The notes under the pieces were generated by a model. The model did no database searches, had not been told where the DNA came from, and saw nothing but the letters and a program-made list of their open reading frames with translations. From positions 1 through 61,200 of the forward strand of contig NZ_JAHESC010000044.1 in NCBI RefSeq assembly GCF_018598185.1: DNA of 61,200 bases, given 5' to 3'. Source of the DNA: Dawidia soli (GTDB lineage: Bacteria > Bacteroidota > Bacteroidia > Cytophagales > Cyclobacteriaceae). Made by a program: the position numbers and the translations under genes. Below are positions 20,948 through 58,515 of the stretch, in pieces; position 1 is the first letter of the stretch, and each line of letters opens with the position of its first letter.

Positions 20948-21116
20948 GTGGCAGCCGCGAAAATCCAGCCCCACTCGGATGCGGAGGTCTAGGCCCGGGT
21001 TCTGGCGGCCTCCAATCGGGGTTTACCCGTATCAAAAGCATACCAAAGCTATACATTACCCGTATCATACCCATACCAAAGCTATCCTTGACATATCCCT
21101 GTCATATCACATCCCT
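20948..21116 (-). repeat. 11-bp-unit intergenic repeat element, copy 1 (minus orientation)
   Basis: From 21018 to 21116 the sequence is nine consecutive 11-base units without a single length error. Read on the minus strand they include ATGACAGGGAT, ATGTCAAGGAT, AGCTTTGGTAT (twice) and GGGTAATGTAT, and end in GGGTAAACCCC. A GC-rich tail follows down to GGCTGCCAC (20956-20948). The same unit series, start, end and tail recur at 58287-58504. It fills most of the gap between rpsT and the plus-strand zinc enzyme; apart from it I see only the rpsT promoter in that 346-base gap. Confidence 0.85.
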
Positions 21117-21160
21117 TGCCCCAACCCGGCAAAATTCCATATCTTCCTCCAAAAAACGTT

Positions 21161-22138
21161 GTGAAGCTTATACGCCATTGTTTTCCGGCCCTCATCCTTC
21201 TAACCCTCACCAGTCTAACCATTCCCAACACCACCTGGGGTTTTTTCGCTCACCGCCGCATCAACCGGCTGGCTGTATTCATCCTCCCCCCTGAAATGAT
21301 CGGCTTCTATAAAAAGAACATCGCCTACCTCACCGAAGCCGCCGTAAATCCTGACCGCCGCAGATTCATCCTGCCAGACGAAGCCCCGCGCCACTACATC
21401 GACCTCGACCACTTCGGCGACAGCGCGCGACACAAGGTCCCCCAATATTGGGACAGCGCGGTTTCCAAATACTCGGAAGACACCCTCAAAGCGCACGGCA
21501 TTCTCCCATGGCATATTGTCAAGACCTACTACCGACTGAAAGACGCCATGATGATTCGCGACGCTGCGGCCATCTTGCGCCTGTCGGCGGACCTTGGTCA
21601 TTATATCGGCGACGCCCACGTGCCCCTGCACACCACCGTAAATTATAATGGCCAACGCACCGGCCAGGAAGGCATTCACGCCTTCTGGGAATCCAGGCTG
21701 CCGGAATTGTTCTCGGACAACTACGACTTTTTTGTAGGAAAGGCGAAGTACATCGAGCATCCACAAACGGCCGCTTGGAATGCCGTCCTCGGTGCACACA
21801 GCGTGGTGGATTCCGTGCTGCAGGAAGAAAAGAAACTGGCTCTGCGACGTGGGAATAAAAAATACTCGTTTGAAACACGCGGGACACAAACCCAGAAAGT
21901 ATACGCCCGGGAGTACGCAGCCGCTTACCATCAAATAGTGGGAGTCATGGTAGAACGGCAAATGCGCGCGGCAATACACCTCACGGGTAGTATCTGGTAC
22001 ACCGCGTGGGTAAATGCCGGCCAGCCAGACCTGCAGGCATTGACAATAGAAATAGCCTCGGAAGAGGAGTTGGAAGAAAGACGATCAGCGTTGCGTGACT
22101 GGAAAGAACAACAAAGGAAGATTCGCGACCACGAATGA
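21161..22138 (+). CDS. Secreted zinc-dependent phospholipase C / S1-P1 nuclease-like protein
   Basis: About 325 residues. A signal peptide (LILLTLTSLTIPNTT) precedes W26-GFFAH, and an N-terminal Trp with closely following His is the typical mature start of the phospholipase C/S1-P1 nuclease fold, where it binds the trinuclear zinc site. Further metal ligands fit LRLSADLGHYIGDAHVPLH and GIHAFWESRL. It probably acts in the periplasm or outside the cell on phosphodiesters, but whether lipid or nucleic acid is the substrate is open. I place the start at GTG 21161; a TTG at 21116 lies inside the repeat element. Confidence 0.78.
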   Translation: MKLIRHCFPALILLTLTSLTIPNTTWGFFAHRRINRLAVFILPPEMIGFYKKNIAYLTEAAVNPDRRRFILPDEAPRHYIDLDHFGDSARHKVPQYWDSAVSKYSEDTLKAHGILPWHIVKTYYRLKDAMMIRDAAAILRLSADLGHYIGDAHVPLHTTVNYNGQRTGQEGIHAFWESRLPELFSDNYDFFVGKAKYIEHPQTAAWNAVLGAHSVVDSVLQEEKKLALRRGNKKYSFETRGTQTQKVYAREYAAAYHQIVGVMVERQMRAAIHLTGSIWYTAWVNAGQPDLQALTIEIASEEELEERRSALRDWKEQQRKIRDHE

Positions 22139-22156
22139 TTCGCCGGGAGCGAAACA

Positions 22157-22444
22157 TCAGGCCAACAAGGCCTGCACAATATTTCCCCACTCTTCCTGCA
22201 AGCTCACCTTGGGCACCGGCTTGCCCGCATGATGATACCAGTAAGAGGCATTTCCAAGATCACCTTCTACACGGTGCAGATAAGCGTGTACCCACGAGCC
22301 TTCTGCCGTGGCCACATCTTGCGCTAGCGTATGGGCAGCATCCCAATCGTCGTTCCCCGCAAACCACAGGGCTTGTAACAAGGGCGAAAGGGTAGACGAT
22401 GGCGCCGAGTCTTCCAGGGAGGCCGTAAATTCTTCGTAAGTCAT
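22157..22444 (-). CDS. Conserved hypothetical protein, 95 residues
   Basis: A small soluble protein with a distinctive core: LLQALWFAGNDDWDAAHTLA, then EGSWVHAYLHRVEGDLGNAS and YWYHHAGKPVP, ending EEWGNIVQALLA. I recall this pattern as a widespread bacterial protein of unknown function; it looks helical and repeat-like. The many Trp, His and Asp residues suggest a binding pocket, but there is no basis for naming an activity. Confidence 0.72.
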   Translation of the reverse strand: MTYEEFTASLEDSAPSSTLSPLLQALWFAGNDDWDAAHTLAQDVATAEGSWVHAYLHRVEGDLGNASYWYHHAGKPVPKVSLQEEWGNIVQALLA

Positions 22445-22496
22445 GCCGCCAAAGTATTAAAGCTCGCCCGAAAACCAAAGCGCCGTCAGTCAATAG

Positions 22497-23492
22497 TTAT
22501 TGAACAGGGTAATATACTTCTGTGATCCACTGCGCCGTATCCCGAACGACCATCGGATCGGTAACGTAAATTTCCCACGGACTGCCGCTGATCGTCAGGT
22601 GTTTGTTGGAAATATAACGATTGACCTGCTGATGAGTATCCGTCAGTTTGTCATACGCACCGGCGTGCACCGCCTTAACAGCTTTCCCCGCCGGGACCTG
22701 TTCTACCATATAGGGCTTGGGAAGTTTTGCGTCCGAAGCGATCGGCAGCGCCGCGATGATATCGATCTGACCGTCGGCTTCCCCCGGGTAAATACCCATA
22801 GCAGGACCCGTAACCTTTACCTTCGCCTTCTTTAACATAGAAAGAAGTGTGCCGTACATTGTTTCTAATTGTTTGCCGATGGCATCACTGTCGTCCGAAG
22901 ATGCCTTCCCCGCCATACCGACATAATGCAACGGAGCAGTATTCTCTTCGGTAATTTTAACGGTGAACACAGGCTTTGCTTCGGCCAGCGCTTTCAGGTG
23001 CGTGAGATTGTAATCAAAAGCCTTGTTCATTTCCGGTTTCATGATAATGCCGAACCACCGCGAAATGGGGTTAGCGCCCAGATCGCTCGAAAAGCCGATC
23101 GTTAGCTGCGTGCTGTCATCCTTGGGTATAAAAGTATACCATCCCTTGGCAACGCCATGCTCCATAAAGTCAAGATCTGTTTTGATAGAAGAGCCAGGAA
23201 TACTTTCCGTGATCGTGACTTTACCATCACCCGACTTCTCGCCCGTCCAGGAATACCACGCGCCCAGGCCCGCGCGTTTGTCACCATAGGTCAGTTGCAT
23301 GTCGTCTTTGTACAGGTCGTTCCAGTAAGACCACTTACCCCAACGCTCAAGGTCGTTGATATCCTCAAAGATGTTTTCAGCAGGTGCCCCGACTGTAATA
23401 TGGCGCGCGATCTCAAGCTTTCCGGGTAACATAAGGCCGACAATGGCCAATAGAACAAGAAGGGCTAAAAGCCCTAAAAAAAACTTTTTCAT
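22497..23492 (-). CDS. SRPBCC domain fused to GyrI-like effector-binding domain
   Basis: About 331 residues: an N-terminal membrane anchor (MKKFFLGLLALLVLLAIVGL), an SRPBCC/polyketide-cyclase-type ligand-binding domain (residues about 28-170; ITVGAPAENIFEDINDLERW), and a C-terminal GyrI/AraC effector-binding-like domain (about 185-331; KVTGPAMGIYPGEADGQIDI). Both folds bind small hydrophobic ligands, so a membrane-tethered sensor or carrier is plausible; no enzyme motif is visible. The ATG at 23492 is the start; upstream in-frame codons to 23579 look like leader. Confidence 0.82.
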   Translation of the reverse strand: MKKFFLGLLALLVLLAIVGLMLPGKLEIARHITVGAPAENIFEDINDLERWGKWSYWNDLYKDDMQLTYGDKRAGLGAWYSWTGEKSGDGKVTITESIPGSSIKTDLDFMEHGVAKGWYTFIPKDDSTQLTIGFSSDLGANPISRWFGIIMKPEMNKAFDYNLTHLKALAEAKPVFTVKITEENTAPLHYVGMAGKASSDDSDAIGKQLETMYGTLLSMLKKAKVKVTGPAMGIYPGEADGQIDIIAALPIASDAKLPKPYMVEQVPAGKAVKAVHAGAYDKLTDTHQQVNRYISNKHLTISGSPWEIYVTDPMVVRDTAQWITEVYYPVQ

Positions 23493-23571
23493 AGTGATGG
23501 AGGGTTTAAGTGACTGGAAGATAAGCAATAATCTTTTACGAAAACGTTTGCATTTATACACGAATGTCTGG

Positions 23572-23587
23572 ATATTCAACTGAATAT
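23572..23587. promoter_or_regulatory. 16-bp palindrome in a divergent intergenic region
   Basis: ATATTCA (23572-23578) and TGAATAT (23581-23587) form a perfect inverted repeat with a two-base centre in the 225-base gap between the SRPBCC-GyrI gene (minus) and the DUF4199 gene (plus). Its size and place fit a dimeric repressor operator. Nothing else was found in the gap. Confidence 0.35.
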
Positions 23588-23717
23588 ACGTTGGTAGGTA
23601 ACAGATTGGCAGGAGTATAAACAGGACCTAAACCGGTTCGCAAAAACGTAGAGGGTACTGGCCCTGTGGCACAGTATTTTAAGTTTTCTAAACAGAAGAA
23701 CACGAAACCTTAAGAAT

Positions 23718-24179
23718 ATGAATATCTGGAACAGAAGCACCCGCATCCCCGAGATCTACGGTACAGCGATCGCCCTGGGATTGATCGTCTACTTCTTTTT
23801 AATGTACGCCCTGGGGTTGATCCACGTTGTCGAACTTCGACTGCTGAACTTGGTCATTATGCTGGCCGGAGTTTATTACGCGCTGAAACAATTCACCCGA
23901 ACCCACCATGGACAGCTGAATTACTTCCGCGCCATGGCCGTCGGTGTAGGCGCTGCCGCGATCGGCTCCGCTACCTTCGCGGCGTTTTTATTCTTCTACC
24001 TGAAGATCGATACAAACCTGATGCAATCCCTCATTGACAATGAACCCATGGGGCCTTACCTCAATGCCTATATAGCCGCATTTATGGTCATGCTGGAAGG
24101 CCTTTTCTCTGGCTTGTTTGTGACGTTCGTACTATTGAACTGGATACGCACCGATCAGGTAAACCAGCCCATAGGCTGA
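23718..24179 (+). CDS. DUF4199 membrane protein (third copy in the window)
   Basis: 153 residues with four membrane helices; the central pattern ALKQFTRTHHGQLNYFRAMAVG corresponds to the KELRDYYQG…YWQG block of DUF4199. The loop between helices 3 and 4 is shorter than in the pair at 7.4-8.4 kb. Function unknown. A bidirectional terminator follows. Confidence 0.8.
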   Translation: MNIWNRSTRIPEIYGTAIALGLIVYFFLMYALGLIHVVELRLLNLVIMLAGVYYALKQFTRTHHGQLNYFRAMAVGVGAAAIGSATFAAFLFFYLKIDTNLMQSLIDNEPMGPYLNAYIAAFMVMLEGLFSGLFVTFVLLNWIRTDQVNQPIG

Positions 24180-24180
24180 T

Positions 24181-24217
24181 AAACAAAGAAGCCCACGTTT
24201 AGTGGGCTTCTTTGTTT
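24181..24217. terminator. Bidirectional terminator between convergent genes
   Basis: AAACAAAGAAGCCCAC (24181-24196) pairs perfectly over 16 bases with its partner at 24202-24217 around a five-base loop. The A-rich 5' arm and T-rich 3' arm let it work on both strands, for DUF4199 (plus) and the fucosidase (minus). Confidence 0.92.
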
Positions 24218-24222
24218 ACTAA

Positions 24223-25536
24223 CTACTTCAACTGGAGCTCGACGATCGTATCGAACTCCTGCCGACCCCCAGGGGGGATCTGTAATGTGATCCCATATTC
24301 GTTCTCCGCAAACTTGACCGGCGTCGATGTTCCATAAACCTTGGCCGTCTTGATCTTTTTGCCCCACGAAGGGATCGTCAAAACGTTATCCGACCAGCGA
24401 AGAATATGAACAAAAACTGTATTCCCTTTTTGCGTGGTCACACCCCAGTCCCGTGCTGTCAAGGGGCCGCCATGCGTGCCGTAAATAGTCTCTCCATTTT
24501 TAGCAAGCCAGTCGCCCACCTGTTGTAAGCGCTCAACATGCTCGGGTTGTATTTGCCCATTCGGCATCGGTCCGATGTTCAATAAGAAGTTGGCGTCGTA
24601 GCCGGCCGCCTTCACCAGGTACTGAACGAGCTCCTGCGTACTCTTATGGTGGTTGTCCTTCAGATTAAAACCCCATGAATGATTGATGGTCTCGCAAGTC
24701 TCCTTCGGCAGATCGCCGATCTTTTGCTCAGGCGCAAACCCAGTAGTGTTGTGGCCCGGCAGGTCCTTCTCGAACATCTGGAAATCCTCACCTGCAAAAG
24801 GCGTCACGTGGTGGTTACTGCCCACAAGAGCACCGGGCTGAAGTTTGTGGATCAAAGAGTACGTGCGCGCTAGGCGCCAGTCGGCATCCTTTTTATCCCA
24901 CATGCCGTCAAACCAGATGCCACCGATCTCGCCATAGCCTGTCAGGAGCTCCGTAAGCTGGGCATCCATATAGTCGAGGTAAGCATTCCAGTTGCCGTGT
25001 TCCGGCCGACCCGTCCAGCTGCCACCCGTACCCCCTCGGGGGAAATAATCGGGGTGATGCCAATCTAACTGTGAATGGTAAAAGAAAAGCTTGACACCCT
25101 CACGACGGCATTCGTCGGCCAGCATCTTCAACACGTCTTTGCCATAAGGCGACCGTTTTACGATAGTATAATCCGACACGCGGCTGTCCCACATGGCAAA
25201 CCCGTCGTGATGTTTGCTGGTAATGACGATATATTTCATGCCCGCGCGCTTCGCCAGCTGCACCCAGCTCTTGGCATCGAACGCGGTAGGATTGAAGAAC
25301 GCAGGCAGCTTCTCATAGTCCCGTATCGGAATCTGTTGCTGATTCATAACCCATTCGCCGTCGCCCAGCACACTATACACACCCCAGTGAATGAACAAAC
25401 CGAACCTCGCCGACTGAAACCATTCCCGGTTTTGTTTGTTGACATCGGAAGGAATATAGGTTGATTGTGCCACCGCGTTTCCCGAAATCCATAACAGGAC
25501 CAGGAACGACTTTAAAAGAATAGAAATTGGCTTCAT
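24223..25536 (-). CDS. Secreted alpha-L-fucosidase (GH29)
   Basis: About 437 residues: signal peptide (ILLKSFLVLLWISGNAVAQ), then the GH29 (alpha/beta)8 barrel with WFQSARFGLFIHWGVYS, YIVITSKHHDGFAMWDS and the nucleophile region GGIWFDGMWD, and a C-terminal beta-sandwich. It cleaves alpha-linked L-fucose from glycans in the periplasm. The start is ATG 25536 at the signal peptide; a 10-codon extension exists. It is isolated: no SusCD or other glycosidase adjoins it. A palindrome lies in the short gap shared with the divergent aminopeptidase gene. Confidence 0.92.
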   Translation of the reverse strand: MKPISILLKSFLVLLWISGNAVAQSTYIPSDVNKQNREWFQSARFGLFIHWGVYSVLGDGEWVMNQQQIPIRDYEKLPAFFNPTAFDAKSWVQLAKRAGMKYIVITSKHHDGFAMWDSRVSDYTIVKRSPYGKDVLKMLADECRREGVKLFFYHSQLDWHHPDYFPRGGTGGSWTGRPEHGNWNAYLDYMDAQLTELLTGYGEIGGIWFDGMWDKKDADWRLARTYSLIHKLQPGALVGSNHHVTPFAGEDFQMFEKDLPGHNTTGFAPEQKIGDLPKETCETINHSWGFNLKDNHHKSTQELVQYLVKAAGYDANFLLNIGPMPNGQIQPEHVERLQQVGDWLAKNGETIYGTHGGPLTARDWGVTTQKGNTVFVHILRWSDNVLTIPSWGKKIKTAKVYGTSTPVKFAENEYGITLQIPPGGRQEFDTIVELQLK

Positions 25537-25565
25537 AGAGTTTTGGTTTAAATTGCAGCCTGACA

Positions 25566-25580
25566 ACCGTTCAGAACGGT
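25566..25580. promoter_or_regulatory. Palindrome between divergent fucosidase and aminopeptidase genes
   Basis: ACCGTT (25566-25571), CAG, AACGGT (25575-25580): a perfect inverted repeat in the 61-base gap between the two start codons. A regulator bound here could control both genes. The gap is too short to hold much else. Confidence 0.3.
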
Positions 25581-25597
25581 GTTTTGAAAATTAACCA

Positions 25598-26899
25598 TTG
25601 AAAATGAGATACAAAAACATACCGAAGGAACTCTTCGAATCAAACCGGGAAAAGCTTCGCAAGGAACTAAAGCCTCACGCCCTGCTCGTCGTCAATGCCA
25701 ACGACGTTATGCCGACAAACTCCGACGGCAGCATGCGCTTCCGGCAGAACAGTGACCTCTTCTATCTCACAGGCGTAGACCAGGAAGAAACCATCTTAGT
25801 CATGTGCCCCGACTTTCCAGACGAACGCTATAGAGAAGTCCTCTTTGTGCGCGAGACCAGCGAAATGATCGCGATCTGGGAAGGACACAAACTGACCAAA
25901 CAGGAAGCCCGCGAAAAAACCGGCATCCAAACCGTGTTGTGGGTATCCGAATTTCAAAAAGTCTTTAACCTCATGATGCTCATGGGGGACACAGAATATG
26001 TATACCTCAACACCAACGACCATTACCGTGCCGACAACCCCGTGGAGACACGCGAGGGGCGTTTTGTAAAATGGTGCCTGGAGAAATTTCCGCTGCACAA
26101 GTATGAGCGCCTGGCACCCATCATGCACCGTCTGCGGTCGGTAAAATCGCAACACGAGCTCGACCTGATGCAACGCGCGTGCGACATTACCGATGCCGGC
26201 TTCCGGCGTGTATTGAAGTTCGTGAAGCCCGGTGTGAAGGAGTACGAAATTGAAGCCGAATATGTACACGAATTTCTGCGCCGCGGCTCCCGCGGTTTTG
26301 CCTACGAACCCATTATTGCCTCCGGCACAAACTCGTGCGTGCTGCACTACCTCGAGAACAACCAGGTCTGCCAGGATGGCGACCTCCTGTTGCTGGATGT
26401 AGGCGCGGAGTATGCCAACTACAATGCCGACCTGACACGTACAATACCCGTCAACGGTCGCTTCTCCAAACGCCAGAAGGAAGTCTACAATGCCGTGTTG
26501 CGCGTAAAACGCCACGCCTATTCGCTGCTGCGTCCCGGGGTGAAATACTACGAATACCACAAACAGATCCAACAGTTTACCGAACAGGAGCTTATCGGGT
26601 TAAAGCTCATAGACAAGACCGACATCAAAAATCAGGATAGGGACAAACCCCTCTTCATGAAATACTTCATGCACGGCACCAGCCACCAGCTCGGTCTCGA
26701 TGTGCACGATGTCGGCAGCATGTATCATGAAATGCGCGAAGGTCAGGTTTGGACAGTAGAACCGGGCATATACATCCGGGAAGAAGGCCTCGGCGTTCGC
26801 ATTGAAAATAACGTAGTCATTGGCAAGGAGGGAGTACACGACCTGATGAAGAACATACCCGAAGAAGTAGAGGAGATAGAACATATCATGAATAGCTAA
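25598..26899 (+). CDS. pepP: Xaa-Pro aminopeptidase (aminopeptidase P family)
   Basis: A 433-residue cytoplasmic M24 metallopeptidase that removes the first residue from peptides with Pro in second place. An N-terminal AMP_N domain (residues 1-150) leads to the pita-bread domain. The five metal ligands are visible: the two Asp in LLLDVGAEYANYNADLTRT, His in FMHGTSHQLGLDVHDVG, Glu in TVEPGIYI, and Glu in GVRIENNVVIG. Length is standard. It is followed after ten bases by a DUF4198 gene, probably cotranscribed. Confidence 0.93.
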   Translation: MKMRYKNIPKELFESNREKLRKELKPHALLVVNANDVMPTNSDGSMRFRQNSDLFYLTGVDQEETILVMCPDFPDERYREVLFVRETSEMIAIWEGHKLTKQEAREKTGIQTVLWVSEFQKVFNLMMLMGDTEYVYLNTNDHYRADNPVETREGRFVKWCLEKFPLHKYERLAPIMHRLRSVKSQHELDLMQRACDITDAGFRRVLKFVKPGVKEYEIEAEYVHEFLRRGSRGFAYEPIIASGTNSCVLHYLENNQVCQDGDLLLLDVGAEYANYNADLTRTIPVNGRFSKRQKEVYNAVLRVKRHAYSLLRPGVKYYEYHKQIQQFTEQELIGLKLIDKTDIKNQDRDKPLFMKYFMHGTSHQLGLDVHDVGSMYHEMREGQVWTVEPGIYIREEGLGVRIENNVVIGKEGVHDLMKNIPEEVEEIEHIMNS

Positions 26900-26909
26900 A
26901 CAAACGACG

Positions 26910-27710
26910 ATGCGAAAGCGGTTTCTCATGCTGACGGTATTACTCGCAGCCACATGCGCCGTGGAGGCAGCCACCTGGTGGATATTGCCCAGCAACTATT
27001 TCTTCGAAGTAGGAGAGACCGCAAAGATCGGGTTTGTACAGGGAGAAGAGTTTAAAGCCGAGCCCTGGCCGTTGACGCAAAGCCAGGTAGTACGCCTCGA
27101 ACATTACCGTGCCGGCCTTGGCGTTAAAGATCTCCGGGCTTCGATACAAAATGACGATCGCGAAAGACTTGCCATAAAATTCGACAGGGCGGGAACACAG
27201 TTGCTCGCCCTGCAAAGCGCACCACAGTTTAAAGCGTGGGACGCTGCGGAATTCAACGCATTCCTCGAGGAAAATGGACTGGAAACCATCCTGGCGAAAC
27301 GCAAAGAGAGCCGCACCAGTGATAAGCCCGCAGGCGAGCGGCAGGTCGTGTATACCAAATTGTTGATACAGGTAGGAGATACGCCAGACGATGTATATAA
27401 AAAAGCAGTGGGCTTCCCATTGGAAATAATACCCGAACGAAACCCCTACAGCCTCCGGACAGGAGATGTCATGCGTTTTAAGATTCTGAAGGATGGCAAG
27501 CCATTGTTCGGCGCACGGGTAAAAGTGTGGAACCGGAAAGATAATCGTACCACCTTGCAGAACATCTATACCGAGAAAGACGGAACCATGGAGACCCGCC
27601 TGAGCAGCGCCGGGCCGTGGATGGTCAGTGTCGTACAGACAGAACCGTCAAAGATCGCCGGAACAGAATGGAACACAGCTTCGGCCAGCCTCGTCTTTGG
27701 CATCCGATAA
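26910..27710 (+). CDS. DUF4198 domain periplasmic protein
   Basis: 266 residues: signal peptide (MLTVLLAATCAVEA), then the HxxW-type opening ATWWILPSNYFFEVGE seen in DUF4198 proteins, and a beta-sandwich body ending with KVWNRKDNRT…GTMETRLSSAGPWMVSVV. DUF4198 members are periplasmic and often tied to metal (nickel, cobalt) uptake, but no transporter adjoins this one. The stop overlaps the next start (TAATG), indicating coupled translation. Confidence 0.8.
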   Translation: MRKRFLMLTVLLAATCAVEAATWWILPSNYFFEVGETAKIGFVQGEEFKAEPWPLTQSQVVRLEHYRAGLGVKDLRASIQNDDRERLAIKFDRAGTQLLALQSAPQFKAWDAAEFNAFLEENGLETILAKRKESRTSDKPAGERQVVYTKLLIQVGDTPDDVYKKAVGFPLEIIPERNPYSLRTGDVMRFKILKDGKPLFGARVKVWNRKDNRTTLQNIYTEKDGTMETRLSSAGPWMVSVVQTEPSKIAGTEWNTASASLVFGIR

Positions 27711-28147
27711 TGCAAAAACCAACAAGAACTATGCTTTTTTCAGATAAGGCACCCAAACCAGTCGGCGCATACCCGCACGCAAGACAAGTAGGCAACCTGC
27801 TTTTTTTATCCGGCGTGGGACCAAGGAAACGCGATGCAAAAGACATCCCCGGCGTCACACTGGATGAAGACGGAAAAATTCTTCAGTATGACATAGAAAC
27901 ACAGTGCCACGCCGTCTTTGAGAATGTACGCCTCATCCTGGAGGCATCCGGCGCGCGTTGGGATAACCTGGTTGATGTGACCGTCTTTCTCACGAACATG
28001 AAAGACGACTTCCTAACCTTTAACCGGATCTACGCGGAATACTTCAAAGAAAATCAACCGTGCCGTACCACGGTAGAGGTAAATGCATTGCCGACACCGA
28101 TCGCGATCGAGCTTAAATGTATTGCCGTGATAGGATCAGGACACTAA
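27710..28147 (+). CDS. RidA/YjgF-family protein, 2-aminomuconate deaminase-like
   Basis: 145 residues of the RidA imine/enamine deaminase superfamily, with GAYPHARQVGNLLFLSGVGP, the internal FENVRLILEASGA and the active-site-side PCRTTVEVNALP and IELKCIAV. The GAYPHA and SGxGPR wording is closer to 2-aminomuconate deaminase of the 3-hydroxyanthranilate route than to housekeeping RidA. No other tryptophan-breakdown gene is in the window. Its ATG (27710) overlaps the TAA of the DUF4198 gene; an ATG at 27731 is also possible. Its end overlaps the convergent TerB gene by 12 bases. Confidence 0.82.
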   Translation: MQKPTRTMLFSDKAPKPVGAYPHARQVGNLLFLSGVGPRKRDAKDIPGVTLDEDGKILQYDIETQCHAVFENVRLILEASGARWDNLVDVTVFLTNMKDDFLTFNRIYAEYFKENQPCRTTVEVNALPTPIAIELKCIAVIGSGH

Positions 28148-28534: not shown

Positions 28535-28666
28535 AGAGAGAAATCCGGATTGTTGAGGCAAAGGCAAAATTAACCACAATTAAGCAATTATGTCCAAAAG
28601 TCATCGTTGGGAAAGCCGGGGAGCATAAAAACGTCGTATTTAAGCGGGGAATCGTAATTTAAGGAC

Positions 28667-29673: not shown

Positions 29674-29676
29674 TAC

Positions 29677-50546: not shown

Positions 50547-50573
50547 TAGGCTGCTGCCGGCCGGTTGTTCAGG

Positions 50574-51029: not shown

Positions 51030-51055
51030 ATCGCAAAAGTCGTAACTCGCAAGCC

Positions 51056-52180
51056 ATGCGATATTACATCATAGCCGGGGAGCGCTCAGGCGATCTGCAT
51101 GCCGGTAATTTGGTTCGGGCCATTAAGCAATACGATCCGAACGCGGACTTCAAAGGATTCGGTGGTGACTACATGGCATCGGGTGGAGTAAAGCTCACCG
51201 TGCACTACCGGGACCTCGCCTTTATGGGCCTCGTCGAGATCCTCACCAGTCTGAACAAGATATCCCGTTACATCAAGCAGTGCAAGGCAGACATCGAGGC
51301 CTACAACCCCGATGTCATCATCCTGGTGGACTATGGGGGCTTCAATCGCCGTATCGCCAAATTCGGCAGGAAGAAGGGCATCAAGGTTTTCTATTACATA
51401 CCGCCGAAAGTATGGGCCTGGTATCAAAGCCGTGCAAAAGAGCTAAAGGCAAACGTCGATCAGCTCTTCGTCATTCTTCCTTTTGAGAAAGATTTCTTCA
51501 AACGCTTTGATTGGGATGTGGATTACGTCGGCAACCCCGTGCTCGACGCGGTAAAGGCACACGCACCTGACAGGCAGTTCCCGGAGCGAAACAATCTTAT
51601 GAACAAGGAGCCTTTGGTAGCCCTGCTACCCGGCAGCCGTAAACAGGAATTGCGCACCATCATTCCGTTGATGGCATCCGTGGTAGAAAAATTTCCGACG
51701 CGTCACTTTGCGGTGGCCGCTGTATCGAATCTCGATAAATCATTATATGATCCGTTGCGGCAGTACGCCAATGTCACGTTCATCTTTGAAGATACTTACA
51801 ATTTGCTGCAGCATGCTCAGGCAGCCATTGTGACGTCTGGTACGGCCACGCTGGAAACGGCCCTGTTCCGGGTACCCCAGGTAGTAGTCTACAAAACGAC
51901 CAGCACGATCAGCTACTGGCTGCTAAAACAGATCATCAAGGTTGAATACATATCGCTGGTAAACCTGATTGCCGGAAAGGAAGTTGTGAAGGAGATGATC
52001 CAGGGTGCCGCCAATCCCGAAGATGTATCGGCGGAGCTCACCCGCATGTTAGACAATGCGCCCTACCGGGAGACCATGCTCCAGGAATACGACCGTATCA
52101 TAAGGATCCTGGACACTGGGTCGGCATCGGACAATGCCGCGCGGCTGATGACCCAATACCTGAAGAAAGCCGGAAAGTAG
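51056..52180 (+). CDS. lpxB: Lipid-A-disaccharide synthase
   Basis: A 374-residue GT19 glycosyltransferase that joins UDP-diacylglucosamine and lipid X in lipid A synthesis at the inner membrane. It opens with IIAGERSGDLHAGNLVRAIK and contains VDYGGFNRRIAKFGRKKGI, IPPKVWAWYQSRAKELK, DVDYVGNPVLDAV, LLPGSRKQELR and VTSGTATLETALFRVPQVV. Length normal. It follows the pterin synthase by 26 bases and converges on clpX with five bases between stops. Confidence 0.97.
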   Translation: MRYYIIAGERSGDLHAGNLVRAIKQYDPNADFKGFGGDYMASGGVKLTVHYRDLAFMGLVEILTSLNKISRYIKQCKADIEAYNPDVIILVDYGGFNRRIAKFGRKKGIKVFYYIPPKVWAWYQSRAKELKANVDQLFVILPFEKDFFKRFDWDVDYVGNPVLDAVKAHAPDRQFPERNNLMNKEPLVALLPGSRKQELRTIIPLMASVVEKFPTRHFAVAAVSNLDKSLYDPLRQYANVTFIFEDTYNLLQHAQAAIVTSGTATLETALFRVPQVVVYKTTSTISYWLLKQIIKVEYISLVNLIAGKEVVKEMIQGAANPEDVSAELTRMLDNAPYRETMLQEYDRIIRILDTGSASDNAARLMTQYLKKAGK

Positions 52181-52197
52181 CCCGGTTAGGCTACTTT
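52174..52197. terminator. Bidirectional hairpin spanning both stop codons of lpxB and clpX
   Basis: AAAGTAGCC (52174-52182) and GGCTACTTT (52189-52197) form a perfect 9-bp stem with a six-base loop. The lpxB stop (52178-52180) lies in one arm and the clpX stop (52186-52188) in the loop, so the terminator is built from the coding ends. T-runs are only three bases, so strength is uncertain. Confidence 0.55.
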
Positions 52198-53421
52198 CAG
52201 CTTACTGTAATGTGATTTGCTAAATTTCTCTTCCGCGTATGCGCGGTTGATGACGAGCCTGTCGGTATTCTTCTCAGACGGAAGCTCGAACATGGCGTCG
52301 TTGATGATCGCTTCGCAAATGCTGCGCAGGCCACGGGCACCCAGCTTAAACTCCATGGCTTTCTCGACGATGAAGTCGATGGCGCCGTCTTTGAATTCAA
52401 GCTCGATGCTTTCCATATCAAACAGCTTGCGATATTGTTTGATGAGCGCGTTTTTGGGCTCTGTCAGGATCTTACGCAGGGCATCGTTGTCCAGCGGGTT
52501 CAGGTACGACACCACCGGCAAGCGGCCGATAAGCTCAGGGATGAGGCCGAAGCTCTTGAGGTCCTGCGCCGTGACGAACTGCAGCAGGTTGTCTTTGTTG
52601 ATATCGGCAGGATGCAGGCCATCGAGACCCGCCACAAAGCCCAGGGGCCGTGTATTCAGGCGGTTACCAATGAATCGGGAAATTCCTTCGAATGCACCGC
52701 CGCAGATGAACAGGATGTTCTCCGTGTTGACGGTGATCATTTTCTGATCCGGGTGCTTACGGCCGCCCTGGGGTGGCACGTTCACCGCGGTGCCCTCCAG
52801 GAGCTTCAGCAGGGCCTGCTGAACGCCCTCGCCGCTGACATCGCGGGTGATGGAAGGGTTGTCGGATTTCCGCGCGATCTTGTCGATCTCGTCGATATAA
52901 ACAATGCCGCGTTCGGCTGCCTCGACGTTGTAATCGGCGGCCTGGAGCAAGCGCGTCAAAATGCTTTCTACGTCTTCGCCGACATAACCGGCTTCTGTCA
53001 GCACGGTGGCGTCGGCGATACAGAACGGAACTTGCAGCATCTTCGCCAGTGTACGGGCCAGGTAAGTCTTACCTGTACCGGTTTCACCGACCATGATGAT
53101 GTTCGATTTCTCGATCGTCACGTCGCTGTCGAGCTTGCGTTGCATCAACCGTTTGTAGTGGTTGTACACCGCTACCGACATGATCTTTTTCGCTTCGTCC
53201 TGACCGATGACGTACTCGTCCAGGAACTTCTTGATCTCTATCGGTTTGATCAGCTTGAAGTTGGGCGAAAAACCCGCCTCCGTCTTGCTTTTCTTCTCCT
53301 CGCTGAGGATCTGGTTTGCCTGCGTCACACACTTGTCGCAAATGTGTGCGTGGATACCCGAGATCATCAGATCAACATCTTTTTTACTTCTTCCGCAAAA
53401 TGAGCAGGTAACTTCAGCCAT
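52186..53421 (-). CDS. clpX: ATP-dependent Clp protease ATP-binding subunit ClpX
   Basis: A 411-residue AAA+ unfoldase. The N-terminal zinc-binding domain has [11 protein letters not shown] and CDKC; then Walker A GETGTGKT, Walker [14 protein letters not shown], the pore-loop GYVGEDV, and sensor 2 [12 protein letters not shown]. It feeds substrates to ClpP, encoded 97 bases upstream on the same strand; trigger factor lies beyond, the conserved tig-clpP-clpX order. Normal length. Confidence 0.98.
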
Positions 53422-53518
53422 GTTTTGTAGAGATTAGCAATGTGCAAATGTGCGCATTGAGAGTTTCAAAAATACCCAATAGTTAGCACATCTGCACAGT
53501 GACAAATCTGCCTTTAAA

Positions 53519-54193
53519 TTAGTTTTTCTTACGTTCCAGAACTTCGTCGATCAGGCCATATTCCTTGGCTTCAGAGGCGCGCATCCAGTAGTCACGGTCA
53601 GAATCTTTCTCGATTTTCTCGTATTTGGCACCGCTGTGCTTGGCCAGGATATTGTATAGGTCCTTTTTCACCTCCAGGGTCTGCTTCAATGAAATTTCCA
53701 TATCCGAAGCCTGACCTTGCATGCCACTCATGGGCTGGTGGATCATGACCCGGGCGTGCGGCAGAGCCGAGCGTTTTTTGGCCGCGCCGGCCGTCAGCAG
53801 CACGGCGCCCATCGATGCCGCCAGGCCGGTACAGATCGTGGCAACGTCGGGGTTTACATATTGCATGGTGTCATAAATGCCGAGGCCGGCATACACCGAG
53901 CCACCGGGGCTGTTGATGTACATAATGATGTCCTTTTTCGGGTCTGAAGACTCGAGGAAAAGCAGCTGCGCGGTGATCAGGTTGGCGATCTGGTCGTCAA
54001 TACCCATTCCCAGGAAGATGATCCGGTCAGAAATAAGACGTGTAAAGACGTCGATCGCGCGGAAGTTGCCCGGCCGTTCTTCGATCACGTACTGCGTCAT
54101 GTTCTGGATCTGCTGAGCATAGCTGTCGACGGTATTACCGCTCATGCCCAGGTGGTGCACAGCGTACTTTCTGAATTCGTTGTTATACTGCAT
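53519..54193 (-). CDS. clpP: ATP-dependent Clp protease proteolytic subunit ClpP
   Basis: A 224-residue serine protease that forms the 14-mer chamber for ClpX. The triad is visible: S127 in [13 protein letters not shown]152 in [10 protein letters not shown]201 in KDSDRDYWM. The IGF-loop region and the [18 protein letters not shown] strand are intact. An N-terminal extension of about 25 residues precedes the family core, probably processed. Upstream of clpX, downstream of tig. Confidence 0.98.
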
Positions 54194-54300
54194 AGTTAAA
54201 GATGAAATAATTACGTTTTAGGGGTCGAAATTATAGTAATCTTAGGCATCCAAGGTCACAAATCCAACCCTTTCGATCCTTAAACCCATTTAAAGCGAAA

Positions 54301-54339
54301 ATGGTTTTAATTCCCTCCCGCAGGCGGAATTAAAACCAT
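54301..54339 (-). terminator. Terminator-like inverted repeat between tig and clpP
   Basis: ATGGTTTTAATTCC (54301-54314) and GGAATTAAAACCAT (54326-54339) form a perfect 14-bp stem with an 11-base loop, about 70 bases after the tig stop, followed on the minus strand by TTTTC. It may partly separate tig from clpP. The rest of the 215-base gap shows nothing. Confidence 0.6.
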
Positions 54340-54408
54340 AGTCGTTTGGCCGGTGCGCTTTATTGCAGTCGTTGGCAACGGACCGCTACCAGCCTGAGTC
54401 CGTATCGA

Positions 54409-55755
54409 TTAGTGCTTGTGCTCTTCGACGATCTTCTTAAACTCTTCTACCGACACTTTTTTCTCCTGTACGGTAATGTTCTCCTTGATCAGCTTCATGA
54501 TCTTCTCGCCGCGAAGCTGGTTGTAGAGGCGCATAAAGTTCTGGCCGTTCTCGCTCTGCAGATAATTGTCGGCAATGGCATCCATCCGGTCACCCAGCTG
54601 GGCAGCAAACTGCTGGCCGCCAAACTGCGCCAGGATCATTTCTTTCGCTTTCTCGCGTACTTCCTCCGACTCTACGGTGACCTGCTTGTCTTCGGCGATC
54701 TTGTTTTTTACGAGGTCCCATTTCAGGCCGCGTGCGTAGGCATCAAACTCTTTTGCCAGTACATCGTCTGTTACCTGACCGTTGCTGGTGGACTTTAACC
54801 AGGTCTTCAGGAACTCCGCAGGCATCTCGATCTTGGTATTGTCGAGGTAATAATCTTCGATATGGTGGTCGAGGAAGTGTTCCGACTCGCGCTTGTAGTT
54901 CTCGCCAATCGTTTCCTTCACCTTCTCGATGAAATCCGCTTCGGTCGTTACCACGCCCGGGCCGAACACACGGTCAAAAAGCTCGGTGTTAACGGCAGCC
55001 GGCTCGTTATGGCTGATGTTGGTTACTTTGAAAATATAAGTTCCTTTGGCGTTTTTGGCTTCTTCTGCCGGGATGCCCAGCAACTGACCGGTAAGGCCTT
55101 CTTCAGCAAACAGCTTGCTTACTTCAAATTCTACCTCTTCGTCCTTCTTCACGCCAACAAACCTGGCTTGCTCTTTCTTGTTGACCTTTGCTACCTGCAG
55201 GAACGCGTATTCTTTTTTGAAGTCGCCTTCTTTTGCACGAAGCTCACCGGTCAGGTTATCGTCCGAGCCAGCAGCTTCCGGATAGGTCATGGTGCCAAAG
55301 CGGTTTTTGAGGTCGGCAATCGTTTCGTCGATCACTTTCTCGTCTACGGTGATGGAGTATCCCTGAACCTTCACTTTAGACGAAAGATCGTATGAGAAGT
55401 CTTCCACCATCCCAATTTGGTACTCGAACTCAAAATCGCGTTGCGTATCCCAGTCGATGCCAGCAGCTTTTTCCTGATTGGGCAGGGGTTCGCCGAGGAT
55501 GCGTAGCTTATTGTCCTTGATGTAATCCGAAAGCTTGTGGGAGAGGAGGTGGTTGATCTCGTCCACCAGGATGGATTTACCGAACATCTTCTTGATCACC
55601 CCCGTCGGTACTTTGCCCTGACGGAAGCCTTTGATATTCGCCTTGCGCGAATAATCTTTCAGCTTTTCTTCCACATGGGGTTGATAATCACCTTCGGTTA
55701 ATCTAATTTTAATTAGACCTTCAGTGCTGTTCTTTTTGTCCAGAATTATTTCCAA
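54409..55755 (-). CDS. tig: Trigger factor
   Basis: A 448-residue ribosome-bound chaperone. The N-terminal domain has the ribosome-docking signature ANIKGFRQGKVPTG, followed by a divergent FKBP-like domain and a long helical C-terminal domain. The N-terminus MEIILDKKNSTEGLIKIRL matches Bacteroidota relatives exactly, which fixes the start at 55755, where the codon is TTG rather than ATG. No clear ribosome-binding site is seen, as is common in the phylum. First gene of tig-clpP-clpX. Confidence 0.96.
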   Translation of the reverse strand: MEIILDKKNSTEGLIKIRLTEGDYQPHVEEKLKDYSRKANIKGFRQGKVPTGVIKKMFGKSILVDEINHLLSHKLSDYIKDNKLRILGEPLPNQEKAAGIDWDTQRDFEFEYQIGMVEDFSYDLSSKVKVQGYSITVDEKVIDETIADLKNRFGTMTYPEAAGSDDNLTGELRAKEGDFKKEYAFLQVAKVNKKEQARFVGVKKDEEVEFEVSKLFAEEGLTGQLLGIPAEEAKNAKGTYIFKVTNISHNEPAAVNTELFDRVFGPGVVTTEADFIEKVKETIGENYKRESEHFLDHHIEDYYLDNTKIEMPAEFLKTWLKSTSNGQVTDDVLAKEFDAYARGLKWDLVKNKIAEDKQVTVESEEVREKAKEMILAQFGGQQFAAQLGDRMDAIADNYLQSENGQNFMRLYNQLRGEKIMKLIKENITVQEKKVSVEEFKKIVEEHKH

Positions 55756-55839
55756 AGCTTAAAACGTTTGATTGTTTACCAGAGAAACCAAGAACCCTCT
55801 CTGCCCGTGTTTTTGTTATACGAACAGTGAGGGTTCAGC

Positions 55840-55924
55840 TGGTCCGGATGGAGGGACTCGAACCCCCACGCCTTTCGGCACCAGATCCTAAGTCTGGCAC
55901 GGCTACCAATTACGCCACATCCGG
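55840..55924 (-). tRNA. tRNA-Leu (anticodon TAG), CCA encoded
   Basis: On the minus strand the acceptor stem CCGGATG (55924-55918) pairs with CATCCGG (55850-55844), followed by discriminator A (55843) and an encoded CCA (55842-55840). The anticodon arm is CCAGA-CTTAGGA-TCTGG with anticodon TAG (reads CUA and other CUN). The long variable arm (GTGCCGAAAGGCGT) and GGTTCGAGTCC T-loop are typical of a class II leucine tRNA. Confidence 0.95.
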
Positions 55925-55936
55925 AAAATGAGGCCG

Positions 55937-55944
55937 CAAATTTA
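55937..55944 (-). promoter_or_regulatory. Probable -7 element of the tRNA-Leu promoter
   Basis: TAAATTTG on the minus strand (55944-55937) matches TAnnTTTG and lies 12 bases before the tRNA 5' end, followed by the common CGG start region. The -33 element is weak (ATTC at the 19-base spacing). Confidence 0.5.
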
Positions 55945-56047
55945 TGGAATATTCAGAAATAAAGAATAGTTTACGTTTTTAATTCACAAAGAGCTTACAA
56001 AAGAGGAAAAAACCTCGTTTATTGGTTCAAATCAGCGATTTCAGAAG

Positions 56048-58264
56048 ATGGTAATCGATCAGGAGCAGGAGAAAAAAGAGATCATCAGCCGATACAGAAG
56101 ATTACTACGCAAGGCTAAACCCATTTTGAAGGATGAGGATGCCAAATTGATCAAAAAGGCTTTTACGCTATCGCTGGATGCTCACAAAGACATGCGCCGC
56201 AAGTCTGGTGAGCCGTTTATTTTCCATCCCCTGGCCGTGGCCGAGATTTGCGTGGAAGAGATCGGCCTGGGCACGACCTCGATCATCGCCGCGCTCATGC
56301 ACGATGTCGTGGAAGACACTGACATCGAGCTGGTGGACATCGAGCGGATGTTCGGCAAAAAGATCGCCAAGATCATCGATGGTCTGACGAAGATCCGCGG
56401 CGTTTTTGAATACGGCACTTCGCAGCAGGCGGAAAACTTTCGCAAGATGCTGTTCACGCTGTCGGAAGACGTTCGGGTGATCCTTATCAAGCTGGCTGAC
56501 CGTCTGCACAACATGCGCACGCTCGACAGCATGCCCCGGCAGAAGCAGCTCAAAGTCGCCAACGAGACCATTTATCTCTATGCCCCGCTGGCCCACCGCC
56601 TGGGGCTGAACGCCATCAAAACCGAGCTGGAAGACCTGTACCTGCGGTTTACGGATAAACCGATCTATCAGTCTATCGCGCAGCAGATCGACGCTACCCG
56701 GTCGGCCCGGAACAAGTTCATCAAACAGTTCGTGGTTCCGATCAAGGAGGAGCTTGACAAGCTCGACATTCATTACGACATCAAGGGGCGCCCGAAGTCC
56801 ATCCACTCCATCTGGAATAAAATGCGTAAGCAGAACATTCCCTTTGAGGAGGTATATGACCTGTTTGCCATCCGCATCATACTCGACACCAGCATGGAGC
56901 ACGAAAAGGCGCTCTGCTGGCAGGTGTATTCCATCGTAACAGATTATTATACGCCCAACCCGGACCGCCTGCGCGACTGGATCAGCACTCCCAAGGCCAA
57001 TGGCTACGAGTCGTTGCACACCACGGTCATGGCCAAGAACGGTCAGTGGGTAGAAGTGCAGATCCGTACCAAACGCATGGACGAAATTGCCGAGAAAGGC
57101 TACGCCGCCCACTGGAAATACAAAGACTCCAACACTACCGCCGAGTCCAACCTGGAGAAGTGGCTGGCCCGCGTCCGTGACCTGCTGGAACAAAACAATC
57201 ACAATGCCCTCGACTTTGTCGACGACTTTCGCGGCAACCTGTTCAGCGACGAGGTATTTGTGTTCACGCCGAAGGGCGAGCTCAAAACATTGCCTTATGG
57301 CGCCACGGCGCTTGATTTTGCCTTCGAGATCCACACCCAGGTTGGATCGAAATGTATCGGCGCCAAAGTCAACAACAAGCTGGTACCGATCAACTACGTG
57401 CTGAAGAACGGTGACCAGATCGAGATCCTGACCTCGGCCAAACAGCGCCCGCATGAAGACTGGCTGCGCTTTGTGGTCAGCTCCAAGGCCAAGTCGCGCA
57501 TTAAGGATGAGCTCAAGGAGGACAAAAAGAAATCGGCCGAGGAAGGCAAGGAGATCCTGCTCCGCAAACTGCGTCAGCTCAAGGAAGAGCCCACCCAGCA
57601 GTTTATGGAACAACTACGCGAGCATTTCAAAGTGCCCGCCAATTTTGAGTTGTATTACCGGGTCGGCCGGGGTTTTATCACCGCAGCCGACATCAAAAAG
57701 TTTGTCGAGAACAAACCCATTTCCCCCATAAAAAGCCGGCCCAACCTGCAGGTGGCCGACGCCAAGGCCATCGAGCAGGAGATCACCAAGATCAAAGGCC
57801 GCTACGAGGACATTCTGCTGGTTGGCGAGGACATGGACGTGGTAGACTACAAGCTGGCCAAATGCTGCACGCCCATTCCCGGTGACGACGTTTTTGGGTT
57901 TGTGACCGTATCTGAAGGTATCAAAATACATCGCACCAACTGCCCCAATGCGCCCGAGCTGCTATCGCACCACGGCAACCGGGTCGTAAAGGCCAAATGG
58001 ACGTCCCAGCACGAGGTGGCATTCCTCACGGGTCTGAAGATCCGTGGCACCGACCGCGTGGGGCTCATTAATGATGTTTCCAAGATCATCTCTGAAGAAC
58101 TGAAGGTGAACATGAGCTCCATGTCCATCCATACCGACTCTGGTATTTTTGAAGGCGAGATCATGCTTTATGTAAACGACACCCGCCATCTGGAGCAGCT
58201 GATCGAAAAGTTGCGGAGCGTGGAAGGTGTCGTAAAAGTCAGCCGTTTCGATTCCAAGGAATAA
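56048..58264 (+). CDS. Bifunctional (p)ppGpp synthetase/hydrolase (RelA/SpoT)
   Basis: A 738-residue long RSH alarmone enzyme. The N-terminal HD hydrolase site is intact (ALMHDVVEDTDIELVDIE), as is the synthetase region (DIKGRPKSIHSIWNKM, FAIRIILDT, ANGYESLHTTVM, EVQIRTKRMDEIAEKGYAAH). A TGS domain (FVFTPKGELKTLPYGATALD), helical and zinc-finger-like region (LAKCCTPIPGDDVFGF) and C-terminal ACT domain follow. Both activities should be present, controlling the stringent response. Stands alone; the repeat element follows its stop by 22 bases. Confidence 0.96.
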   Translation: MVIDQEQEKKEIISRYRRLLRKAKPILKDEDAKLIKKAFTLSLDAHKDMRRKSGEPFIFHPLAVAEICVEEIGLGTTSIIAALMHDVVEDTDIELVDIERMFGKKIAKIIDGLTKIRGVFEYGTSQQAENFRKMLFTLSEDVRVILIKLADRLHNMRTLDSMPRQKQLKVANETIYLYAPLAHRLGLNAIKTELEDLYLRFTDKPIYQSIAQQIDATRSARNKFIKQFVVPIKEELDKLDIHYDIKGRPKSIHSIWNKMRKQNIPFEEVYDLFAIRIILDTSMEHEKALCWQVYSIVTDYYTPNPDRLRDWISTPKANGYESLHTTVMAKNGQWVEVQIRTKRMDEIAEKGYAAHWKYKDSNTTAESNLEKWLARVRDLLEQNNHNALDFVDDFRGNLFSDEVFVFTPKGELKTLPYGATALDFAFEIHTQVGSKCIGAKVNNKLVPINYVLKNGDQIEILTSAKQRPHEDWLRFVVSSKAKSRIKDELKEDKKKSAEEGKEILLRKLRQLKEEPTQQFMEQLREHFKVPANFELYYRVGRGFITAADIKKFVENKPISPIKSRPNLQVADAKAIEQEITKIKGRYEDILLVGEDMDVVDYKLAKCCTPIPGDDVFGFVTVSEGIKIHRTNCPNAPELLSHHGNRVVKAKWTSQHEVAFLTGLKIRGTDRVGLINDVSKIISEELKVNMSSMSIHTDSGIFEGEIMLYVNDTRHLEQLIEKLRSVEGVVKVSRFDSKE

Positions 58265-58286
58265 TACGATTGCTCCTGTAGCGATT

Positions 58287-58407
58287 ATGTCAGGGATAGG
58301 TGAAGGATAGCTATGGGATAGCTTTGATACGGGTAATGTACGGCTTTGGTACGGCTTTGATACGGGTAATCTACGGGTTTGGTACGGCTTTGATACGGGT
58401 AACCCCC
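58287..58407 (+). repeat. 11-bp-unit intergenic repeat element, copy 2 (plus orientation)
   Basis: Eleven consecutive 11-base units with no length error. They begin ATGTCAGGGAT, AGGTGAAGGAT, AGCTATGGGAT; the middle is dominated by GGCTTTGATAC, GGGTAATGTAC and GGCTTTGGTAC, where three units make a 33-bp higher-order repeat (58331-58396); the last unit is GGGTAACCCCC. A GC-rich tail follows and the element ends with GGCTGCCAC at 58496-58504, as in copy 1 at 20948-21116. It lies in the 453-base gap between relA and fur. Confidence 0.9.
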
Positions 58408-58432
58408 GGACTAAAGGCAGGCCGAAGCCGGG

Positions 58433-58487
58433 GTTGTAGCACTGATATGGCAGTATTGTAGCAGAGTTACGGCACAGTTGAAGCAGC
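58433..58487 (+). repeat. Second 11-bp-period block with a different consensus
   Basis: Five further 11-base units follow the GC-rich tail: GTTGTAGCACT, GATATGGCAGT, ATTGTAGCAGA, GTTACGGCACA, GTTGAAGCAGC. Odd units share GTTGTAGCA and even units share a GGCA centre, giving a 22-bp alternation. I do not see this block in copy 1. Confidence 0.6.
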
Positions 58488-58515
58488 CTAAAGAGGGCTG
58501 CCACAGCTCTGCTAC
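58458..58515 (+). repeat. Nested inverted repeats at the end of the repeat element
   Basis: GTAGCAGAG (58458-58466) pairs perfectly with CTCTGCTAC (58507-58515), enclosing a second stem GCAGCC/GGCTGC (near 58483-58488 and 58496-58501) with a TAAAGAG loop. Together they could form a branched RNA or cruciform. Confidence 0.5.

Follow-up and report, generated by a model that had tools for sequence, protein, structure and literature searches.

Dispersed palindromic elements built of 11-bp units in the intergenic DNA of Dawidia soli and a sister species

Introduction

The genome of Dawidia soli contains, within the 61,200-bp stretch analysed here (the window), two intergenic arrays of 11-bp units that a first-pass annotation, made from the letters of the DNA, had described as two copies of a dispersed element with length conserved more strictly than sequence. 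What kind of element is this, and what holds its period? We observed that one of the arrays adjoins a second, palindromic element that belongs to a family found at many other places in the genome. These elements are dispersed as whole copies, lie in intergenic DNA without strand bias, have both occupied and empty orthologous sites in a sister species, show paired changes in their hairpins and carry few insertions or deletions (indels) in their arms. We consider the chances about even that they represent non-autonomous foldback elements, resembling miniature inverted-repeat transposable elements (MITEs), the arms of which provide in-phase putative protein-binding sites; in this reading both the mobility and the protein are inferred.

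The window makes up the whole of contig C61 in a draft genome of 7.48 Mb (G000). Comparisons were made principally with Parachryseolinea silvisoli QH1ED-6-2 (G002), a sister species placed in the same genus; a named 8-kb stretch of this species (L188) lies entirely within G002 contig C6. Letters were read for about 0.86 Mb of G000, for loci of 3 kb surrounding further matches and for 1.4 Mb of G002, whereas other copy counts are model-based; results given as "by eye" come from inspection of printed sequences. Gene calls are our own simple codon-pair calls.

Two arrays and an adjoining palindromic element in the window

The arrays (A-type) and the parts of the second element (B-type) are as follows, R1 being the model of the B-type family described in the next section.

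21018 to 21116, minus strand: A-type array copy 1, nine 11-bp units, the last being GGGTAAACCCC; no R1 element is attached, and the orthologous gap in G002 lacks the array.
58287 to 58407, plus strand: A-type array copy 2, eleven 11-bp units, the last being GGGTAACCCCC; the G002 orthologue is shorter by one 33-bp block.
58403 to 58433, no strand assigned: GC-rich inverted repeat CCCCCGG...CCGGGG, located at the junction of the A array with the second element, recognised from the sequence and by comparison with other copies; it includes the left lead GGCCGAAGCCGGGG.
58420 to 58564, plus strand: second element (B-type), 145 bp, with imperfect inverted ends GGCCGAAGCC and GCCTTTGGCC.
58433 to 58487, plus strand: left arm of the B-type element, five 11-bp units GTTGTAGCACT GATATGGCAGT ATTGTAGCAGA GTTACGGCACA GTTGAAGCAGC; lag-11 identity 0.57, reached by 0/2000 shuffles.
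58483 to 58501, plus strand: hairpin GCAGC-CTAAAGAGG-GCTGC, with a 5' stem formed by the end of the last unit and a loop of the CTAWAG kind.
58497 to 58564, plus strand: degenerate right arm (GCTGCCACAGCTCTGCTACATCCC...) and right end; weak minus-strand R1 match at 58429-58520 (E 0.0081).

The strict tiling reported for the two arrays, nine and eleven units without a single indel, was confirmed. Lag-11 identity is 0.55 in copy 1 and 0.64 in copy 2, values reached by none of 2000 shuffles at any lag from 7 to 15 (shuffle maxima 0.47 and 0.44, respectively), and Tandem Repeats Finder detects both arrays. On the minus strand the units of copy 1 read, in order, AGGGATGTGAT ATGACAGGGAT ATGTCAAGGAT AGCTTTGGTAT GGGTATGATAC GGGTAATGTAT AGCTTTGGTAT GCTTTTGATAC GGGTAAACCCC. 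The two arrays described by the first-pass annotation are therefore real, but it overlooked the palindromic structure and the second element that follows copy 2, and the GC-rich tail and GGCTGCCAC that it listed as common parts do not survive as such: the GC-rich tail of copy 2 and its GGCTGCCAC belong to the second element (58420-58564), which copy 1 lacks. The presence of the 9-mer GGCTGCCAC at both copies is probably a coincidence, since the R1 model finds no match at copy 1.

A family of elements with a common plan

A covariance model (R1) was built from 14 elements with the structure supplied by hand; no more than 73 candidates were scored per genome, and the counts are thus lower bounds. 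R1 recovers the window element at 58431-58522 on the plus strand (84.7 bits, E 3.9e-18) and gives at least 38 matches at at least 29 places in G000, nine of which are matched on both strands, and at least 36 matches in G002. A complete B-type copy is about 145-156 bp long, with inverted ends close to GGSCAAAGCC and a hairpin at the centre between two arms, each made of at most five 11-bp units. The unit types differ widely, from GTTGCGGCACA (type B), GATATCATAGA (C) and ATTGAAATAGC (D) in G000 to GTTAAGCCCGA (E) and GATAAGCTAGT (F) in G002. They nevertheless share a plan, in which a GC-rich lead near GCCAAAGCSGGG is followed by usually five units and by a hairpin with the last unit as its 5' stem and a loop resembling CTATAG or CTAAAG. 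A pattern of two successive B-type units gave 44 matches in G000, compared with none for the control and none in G002, and the unit dialects therefore differ between the two species; of the other nine genomes, G004 and G019 contain the pattern, once apiece.

A de novo scan of 855 kb of G000 at a threshold of 70 gave 15 peaks at period 11 and at most one each at periods 5, 7, 8, 10, 13, 14, 16 and 17. Periods 6, 9, 12, 15 and 18 gave 9, 6, 7, 2 and 5 peaks, multiples of three being raised because of codons, and period 22 gave four. The equivalent scan of 1.4 Mb of G002 (threshold 68) gave 16 peaks at period 11 against 0-1 at periods 7, 8, 10, 13, 14, 16 and 17.

As far as searched, the elements occur in these two sister species of one genus. 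R1 found no match in 57 other relatives, five of them congeners, and when applied to 390 genomes drawn from the order (11 candidates scored in each) its sole match was in G000, with G002 absent from that result. Phages and plasmids gave no match, and one pattern searched exactly was absent from viral contigs. In 100 kb each of G036 and G019, which represent two other genera of the family, a scan at threshold 66 showed one and two period-11 peaks, respectively, none with a clear hairpin plan; the G036 peak is an AT-rich stretch (by eye). The G019 peaks (C1:2106828-2106928 and 2132843-2132953) have units around ATGTTA and AGCGAA and might be related. A set of 96 stretches from many phyla that carry one exact 17-base pattern was, apart from L188 of P. 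silvisoli, taken as chance. The open-licence literature searched does not describe such elements from Bacteroidetes, Chryseolinea or Parachryseolinea.

A-type arrays

A second profile (R2) describes a 53-base core of the A arrays, TATGTCAGGGA TAGCTCAAGTA TAGCTATGGTA TAGCTTTGATA CGGGTAATC, and was derived from nine sequences at loci chosen for this core, all of which show the same order of unit types. With up to 150 candidates scored in each of 19 genomes, R2 gave 44 matches in G000 (about 37 places, some arrays giving several), 11 in G002 and one weak match in the congener G004, and none in the other 16. The 14-base motif GGCTTTGRTACGGG, allowing one mismatch, occurs 67 times in G000 compared with eight for the reversed control, and a blastn search of G000 with positions 58280-58515 gave 46 matches. 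The first-pass annotation had named two refuting results, a genome scan without further copies and unit lengths that drift from 11 bp. Neither occurred, with hardly any drift from 11 bp among the other copies, and the order of unit types it noted in the two window copies extends to the family as a whole. Length is kept more strictly than sequence in the five-unit arm of the B-type elements, discussed below; the A arrays vary by whole units: nine and eleven in the window, fewer elsewhere. Copy 2 itself contains one extra 33-bp block relative to its G002 orthologue (by eye).

An A array lies within about 200 bp of five of the 29 G000 R1 places (C61, C28, C45:224, C49 and C100:15), where a rough estimate from random intergenic placement gives less than one. 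The A-type arrays appear to be a family related to or associated with the B-type elements, with a variable unit number that grows and shrinks by whole units. Where the orthologous G002 gap was in hand (n=16), the A array was present in seven cases and absent in nine, copy 1 being among those absent (by eye). One orthologous gap (G000 L074 1360-1575; G002 C5:6100-6310) contains both an A array and an adjoining hairpin element in the two species, with hairpin elements of different subfamilies (C-like versus E).

Register is kept while unit sequence changes

The indel count covered 18 R1 matches from each species, 36 in all, with E below 1e-7; the weaker matches (17 of 35 and 6 of 24), many of which are second-strand matches of the same places, were excluded. 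The five-unit zone (57 bases) is free of indels in 32 of the 36, the exceptions being L226, L364, L370 and L074. Sequence, in contrast, is loosely held, with a median identity among copies of 0.63 in G000 and 0.62 in G002. Where intergenic DNA of the two species was aligned, identity is 86.6% and there are 556 gap openings to 4694 substitutions (0.118 per substitution). At this rate, and with about nine substitutions per copy since the family ancestor, 36 copies would have accumulated about 38 gap openings, the true contrast being smaller because the search favours gap-free copies.

The unit consensus, taken from 14 of the 18 G000 copies (the four with indels were left out), is G-W-T-R-N-V-G-C-A-S-W. 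Position 3 is T in 70/70 units and position 9 is A in 97% of them; an invariant T would suit sequence-specific binding. From copy to copy, units that occupy the same position have a similarity of 0.65, compared with 0.58 (G000) and 0.53 (G002) for units at other positions in other copies, which argues for dispersal of whole copies. The first harmonic of GC content along the unit is not dominant (0.21 in G000, others 0.18-0.32; 0.26 in G002, others 0.02-0.39; 0.12 in the A arrays, others 0.12-0.34), which disfavours a pure bending signal.

Palindromic structure

Folding of the elements predicts long foldbacks, for example in C111 (L370), C47 (L364), C100 (L241) and C122 (L368), and these four have arms of 11-bp units on both sides, as expected of foldback elements. 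Both inverted ends, scored at 8/10 or better at a spacing of 144-156 bp against GGSCAAAGCC, a pattern drawn from some of the copies later scored, were found in 7/20 G000 elements (the window element, L351, L356, L368, L370, L226 and L241) and in 1/18 G002 elements (L323), where the E and F copies mostly lack them. The control gave 3/2000 random intergenic places and 2/1997 random places; at 7/10 it rises to 25/2000 and 46/1997, and weaker ends were consequently left uncounted. In size (144-156 bp when both ends are present), absence of coding capacity and number (at least 29 R1 places in G000) the elements are what would be expected of MITEs. Within the hairpin, 90% of the aligned positions are paired compared with 71% in shuffles, none of 500 of which reach this fraction, and four of five pairs have changed on both sides between subfamilies.

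Orthologous sites in the sister species

Twenty of the 29 G000 R1 places were tested in G002, and for ten of them the portion of that genome fetched includes both flanks. Two of these ten sites (C47:63576 and C45:224539) are empty; the other eight are occupied, seven as judged by R1 and one (C100) by eye. Empty orthologous sites support insertion. The occupied sites do not all represent one insertion: the C28 element and its counterpart at G002 C6:336540 are in opposite orientation, and the C41 site holds a B type in one species and an E type in the other (relative orientation not established). Identity between the arms of the two species is 0.65 for the window B-type element, 0.68 at C122, 0.53 at C45:114039, 0.44 at C45:243856, 0.42 at C41 and 0.30 at C49 (the last with a one-base shift uncorrected), compared with 85.5% for coding sequence. 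Judged from these identities the arms diverge more quickly than the DNA around them, and the register stays. Selection on a binding partner or conversion by other copies in the same genome would each have this effect, as would separate insertions at C41, and one or more of these may be at work.

Gene context

That the arrays are intergenic and non-coding, as the first-pass annotation stated, is supported by 29 examined A arrays, none of which lies inside a called gene. Among the 27 with both neighbours, 19 are in codirectional, five in divergent and three in convergent gaps, and the 19 codirectional arrays are divided between the strand of the genes (9) and the opposite strand (10). The background, counted as base pairs in gaps of at least 150, is 57% codirectional, 23% divergent and 21% convergent. 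Eight R1 elements are distributed over four codirectional, three convergent and one divergent gap. This strand-neutral, background-like context fits DNA-level elements, unlike terminators or 3' untranslated RNAs.

Nature of the elements

The MITE-like option raised in the first-pass annotation draws support from whole-copy dispersal, the inverted ends of the second element and the empty sites in G002. If the elements are indeed non-autonomous and foldback-like, a transposase acting in trans would have spread them. The 11-bp spacing, since the repeat corresponds to one helix turn, would then align the repeated binding sites along one side of the helix, as the first-pass annotation deduced for its units from the same period, or along one side of a foldback stem, and an oligomeric protein, either the transposase or a host protein that has adopted the sites, could bind the arms cooperatively. 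Indels that break the register would be lost, while substitutions that keep up with the protein would be kept, and this could give rise to the different unit dialects of the two species.

Similar architectures are found among the foldback transposons of eukaryotes (FB, Galileo, Tetris), which also have long inverted arms containing tandem repeats. Galileo is described as holding additional transposase-binding sites in these repeats, and the Tetris copies found are described as non-autonomous (PMC4079207). The present elements differ in being bacterial, about 145 bp in total and built of one-helix-turn units in strict register, with no target-site duplication seen; no transposase of a known superfamily is linked to them among their neighbours, and we therefore compare them to foldback transposons rather than file them there. 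Bacterial MITEs are characterised as 70-300 bp long, with inverted ends and no coding capacity (PMC3733652), and MITECca01 of Cardinium as mostly intergenic and lineage-specific (PMC9769881). Size and lack of coding capacity are shared with such elements (NEMIS, RUP, ERIC, MITECca01) and so, in the 8 of 38 copies that show both, are inverted ends, but the inside of the present elements is a phased 11-bp array, the closest copies are 85% identical and no parental insertion sequence was identified. Direct repeats spaced by helix turns and bound cooperatively are familiar from iteron arrays and phased activator boxes. Unlike these, the present elements are scattered over dozens of sites and in many cases fold back into hairpins.

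Several points count against the MITE-like reading. No recurrent transposase was found among 121 neighbour proteins at 39 loci; the seven cross-locus pairs trace to a pair of loci that overlap, to one related protein at L073 and to remote paralogues. No autonomous copy with the same ends was detected in 2.26 Mb by a weak scan that itself recognised just two elements (window and C100), and the same scan gave few end pairs farther apart. Inspection of flanks and empty sites by eye showed none of the target-site duplications that the first-pass annotation had proposed to look for, the flanks being too diverged for proof. Two recognisable ends are not seen in most copies (30/38 overall, 17/18 in G002). 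The closest pair of copies is only 0.85 identical, so there has been no recent jump. Most comparable sites (8/10) are common to both species and have arms far more diverged than their flanks, a pattern not expected of a dead insertion. Two of the weaker, excluded R1 matches are shortened when aligned to the model, L239 by eleven bases (one unit) and L241 by some bases, and the recall of the model favours indel-free copies. The number of hairpin pairs changed on both sides is reached by 86/500 shuffles, and the rows tested were chosen for having the hairpin. Finally, units are as similar within a copy (0.65 in G000, 0.63 in G002) as at the same position across copies (0.65 in both), and in-place homogenisation may therefore play a part.

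A more specific version of the MITE-like reading is offered tentatively, as a possibility that we hold to be doubtful: that a fast-evolving DNA-binding protein uses the elements as multivalent landing strips, with five in-phase sites per arm, strong selection on register and a unit sequence that co-evolves with the protein. Units, hairpin and sister copies would then shift dialect together, to the GCA type in one species and the CCG and CTAG types in the other, without any change of position, unit number or period. Were this so, the system would be a bacterial counterpart of the arms races between satellites and their binders.

If the broader MITE-like reading is right, bacteria have small foldback elements built of one-helix-turn blocks, nearly fixed in length and turning over in sequence. 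They would provide a natural series of binding-site arrays with which to find the protein that reads them, and would allow correlated change across dispersed sites to be traced between two sister species. For annotation, the repeat family accounts for a number of long intergenic gaps in both species.

The main rival, which we regard as unlikely, holds that these are host binding sites similar to the BIMEs of E. coli, with arms phased for the wrapping of gyrase or a nucleoid protein, which set intergenic supercoiling, spread long ago and are kept for their use. E. coli gyrase sites are described as a symmetrical 130-bp motif with a 10.75-bp GC periodicity in two 47-bp arms, over-represented in BIME-2 (PMC6379681), and the two phased arms of a complete B element have a similar span in about 145 bp. 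The shared occupation of eight of ten sites, the scarcity of indels and the intergenic, strand-neutral location would all suit such a function. GC content along the unit, however, forms no simple wave, some positions being single letters rather than A/T versus G/C classes, and the empty orthologous sites and the lack of R1 matches in the five congeners also count against it. The nucleoid-protein array among the roles first proposed keeps some probability. Bacterial genomes generally are described as having a weak periodicity of 10-11 bp, the cause of which is debated (PMC7537859).

It is distinctly less probable that the elements are neutral minisatellites copied by slippage and by template switching at hairpins, the constant period being a residue of unit-wise slippage. 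Whole-unit change in the A arrays, such as the 33-bp block at copy 2, is what slippage would produce, and the equal similarity of units within copies and across them is what in-place homogenisation gives. Free slippage, on the other hand, would not be expected to leave five units in nearly all strong R1 matches. The order of unit types seen at the nine core-chosen loci and recovered by R2 at about 37 places, and the inverted ends, also count against this reading, as do the many unlike units that share period 11 (the 15 peaks noted above) where other periods are rare.

Mobilisation as REP- or REPIN-like repeats by RAYT (Y1_Tnp) tyrosine transposases appears improbable. REPs are characterised as 20-40 bp in length, most with a GTAG or CGTC tag (PMC3733652). 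Like REPs, REPINs and BIMEs, the present elements are palindromic, extragenic and hairpin-forming, and often lie close together in opposite orientation, but they contain 11-bp unit arrays, and complete copies of about 145 bp fall outside the REP range. G000 encodes four Y1_Tnp genes. From length and flanks, three of these are presumably RAYT-like (L280, L281 and L282) and one IS200-like (L279). An A array lies about 260 bp upstream of the L281 open reading frame. In contrast, both flanks of L280 (C40:74383-77628) and L282 (C87:3654-6899), two of the three RAYT-like genes, carry a separate REP-like family, GGCGGTCTCCCGACCGCC with CTGGCGCCGGTCTTTAGCCC (by eye), and L279 (C26:31267-34608) is accompanied by a third family, palindromes of the types GCCCTTACAGGGC and CCCAGGCCTGCAGCCTGGG. 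As the Y1_Tnp flanks carry mostly other repeats, RAYT mobilisation was rejected. Copies of the GGCGGTCTCCCGACCGCC-type family also occur near some of the arrays, for example at L068 and L079.

Least likely of all is a transcribed structured RNA, or a terminator or Rho loading site at gene 3' ends, a role that the strong predicted folds, the many copies close behind stop codons and the C-rich minus strand of the A arrays (by eye) might suggest, but which we rejected because the gene context has no polarity (9 same, 10 opposite; gap classes 19/5/3 roughly following the intergenic background) and because Rfam gave nothing credible, its two matches around the element being far below the gathering score.

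Neighbouring genes and a 10-bp array

Copy 1 is flanked by a minus-strand gene (20560-20814), which we take to encode ribosomal protein S20, and by a plus-strand open reading frame with a called start at TTG 21116, the true start being uncertain. Copy 2 lies downstream of a plus-strand gene ending at 58264, presumably a RelA/SpoT homologue. The sole Rfam match in the window at gathering score is a tRNA gene (55843-55924, minus strand). An array at window positions 3462-3558 has a period of 10 rather than 11, with units TACAAACGGC TACAAACGAA TATAAACGAA TATAAGCG, and a similar 10-bp array based on GGGAACTGTT is found downstream of the A array at G002 locus L249 (by eye). These are possibly sister families with a 10-bp register, and since such arrays occur too, 11 bp is the rule here and not a law.

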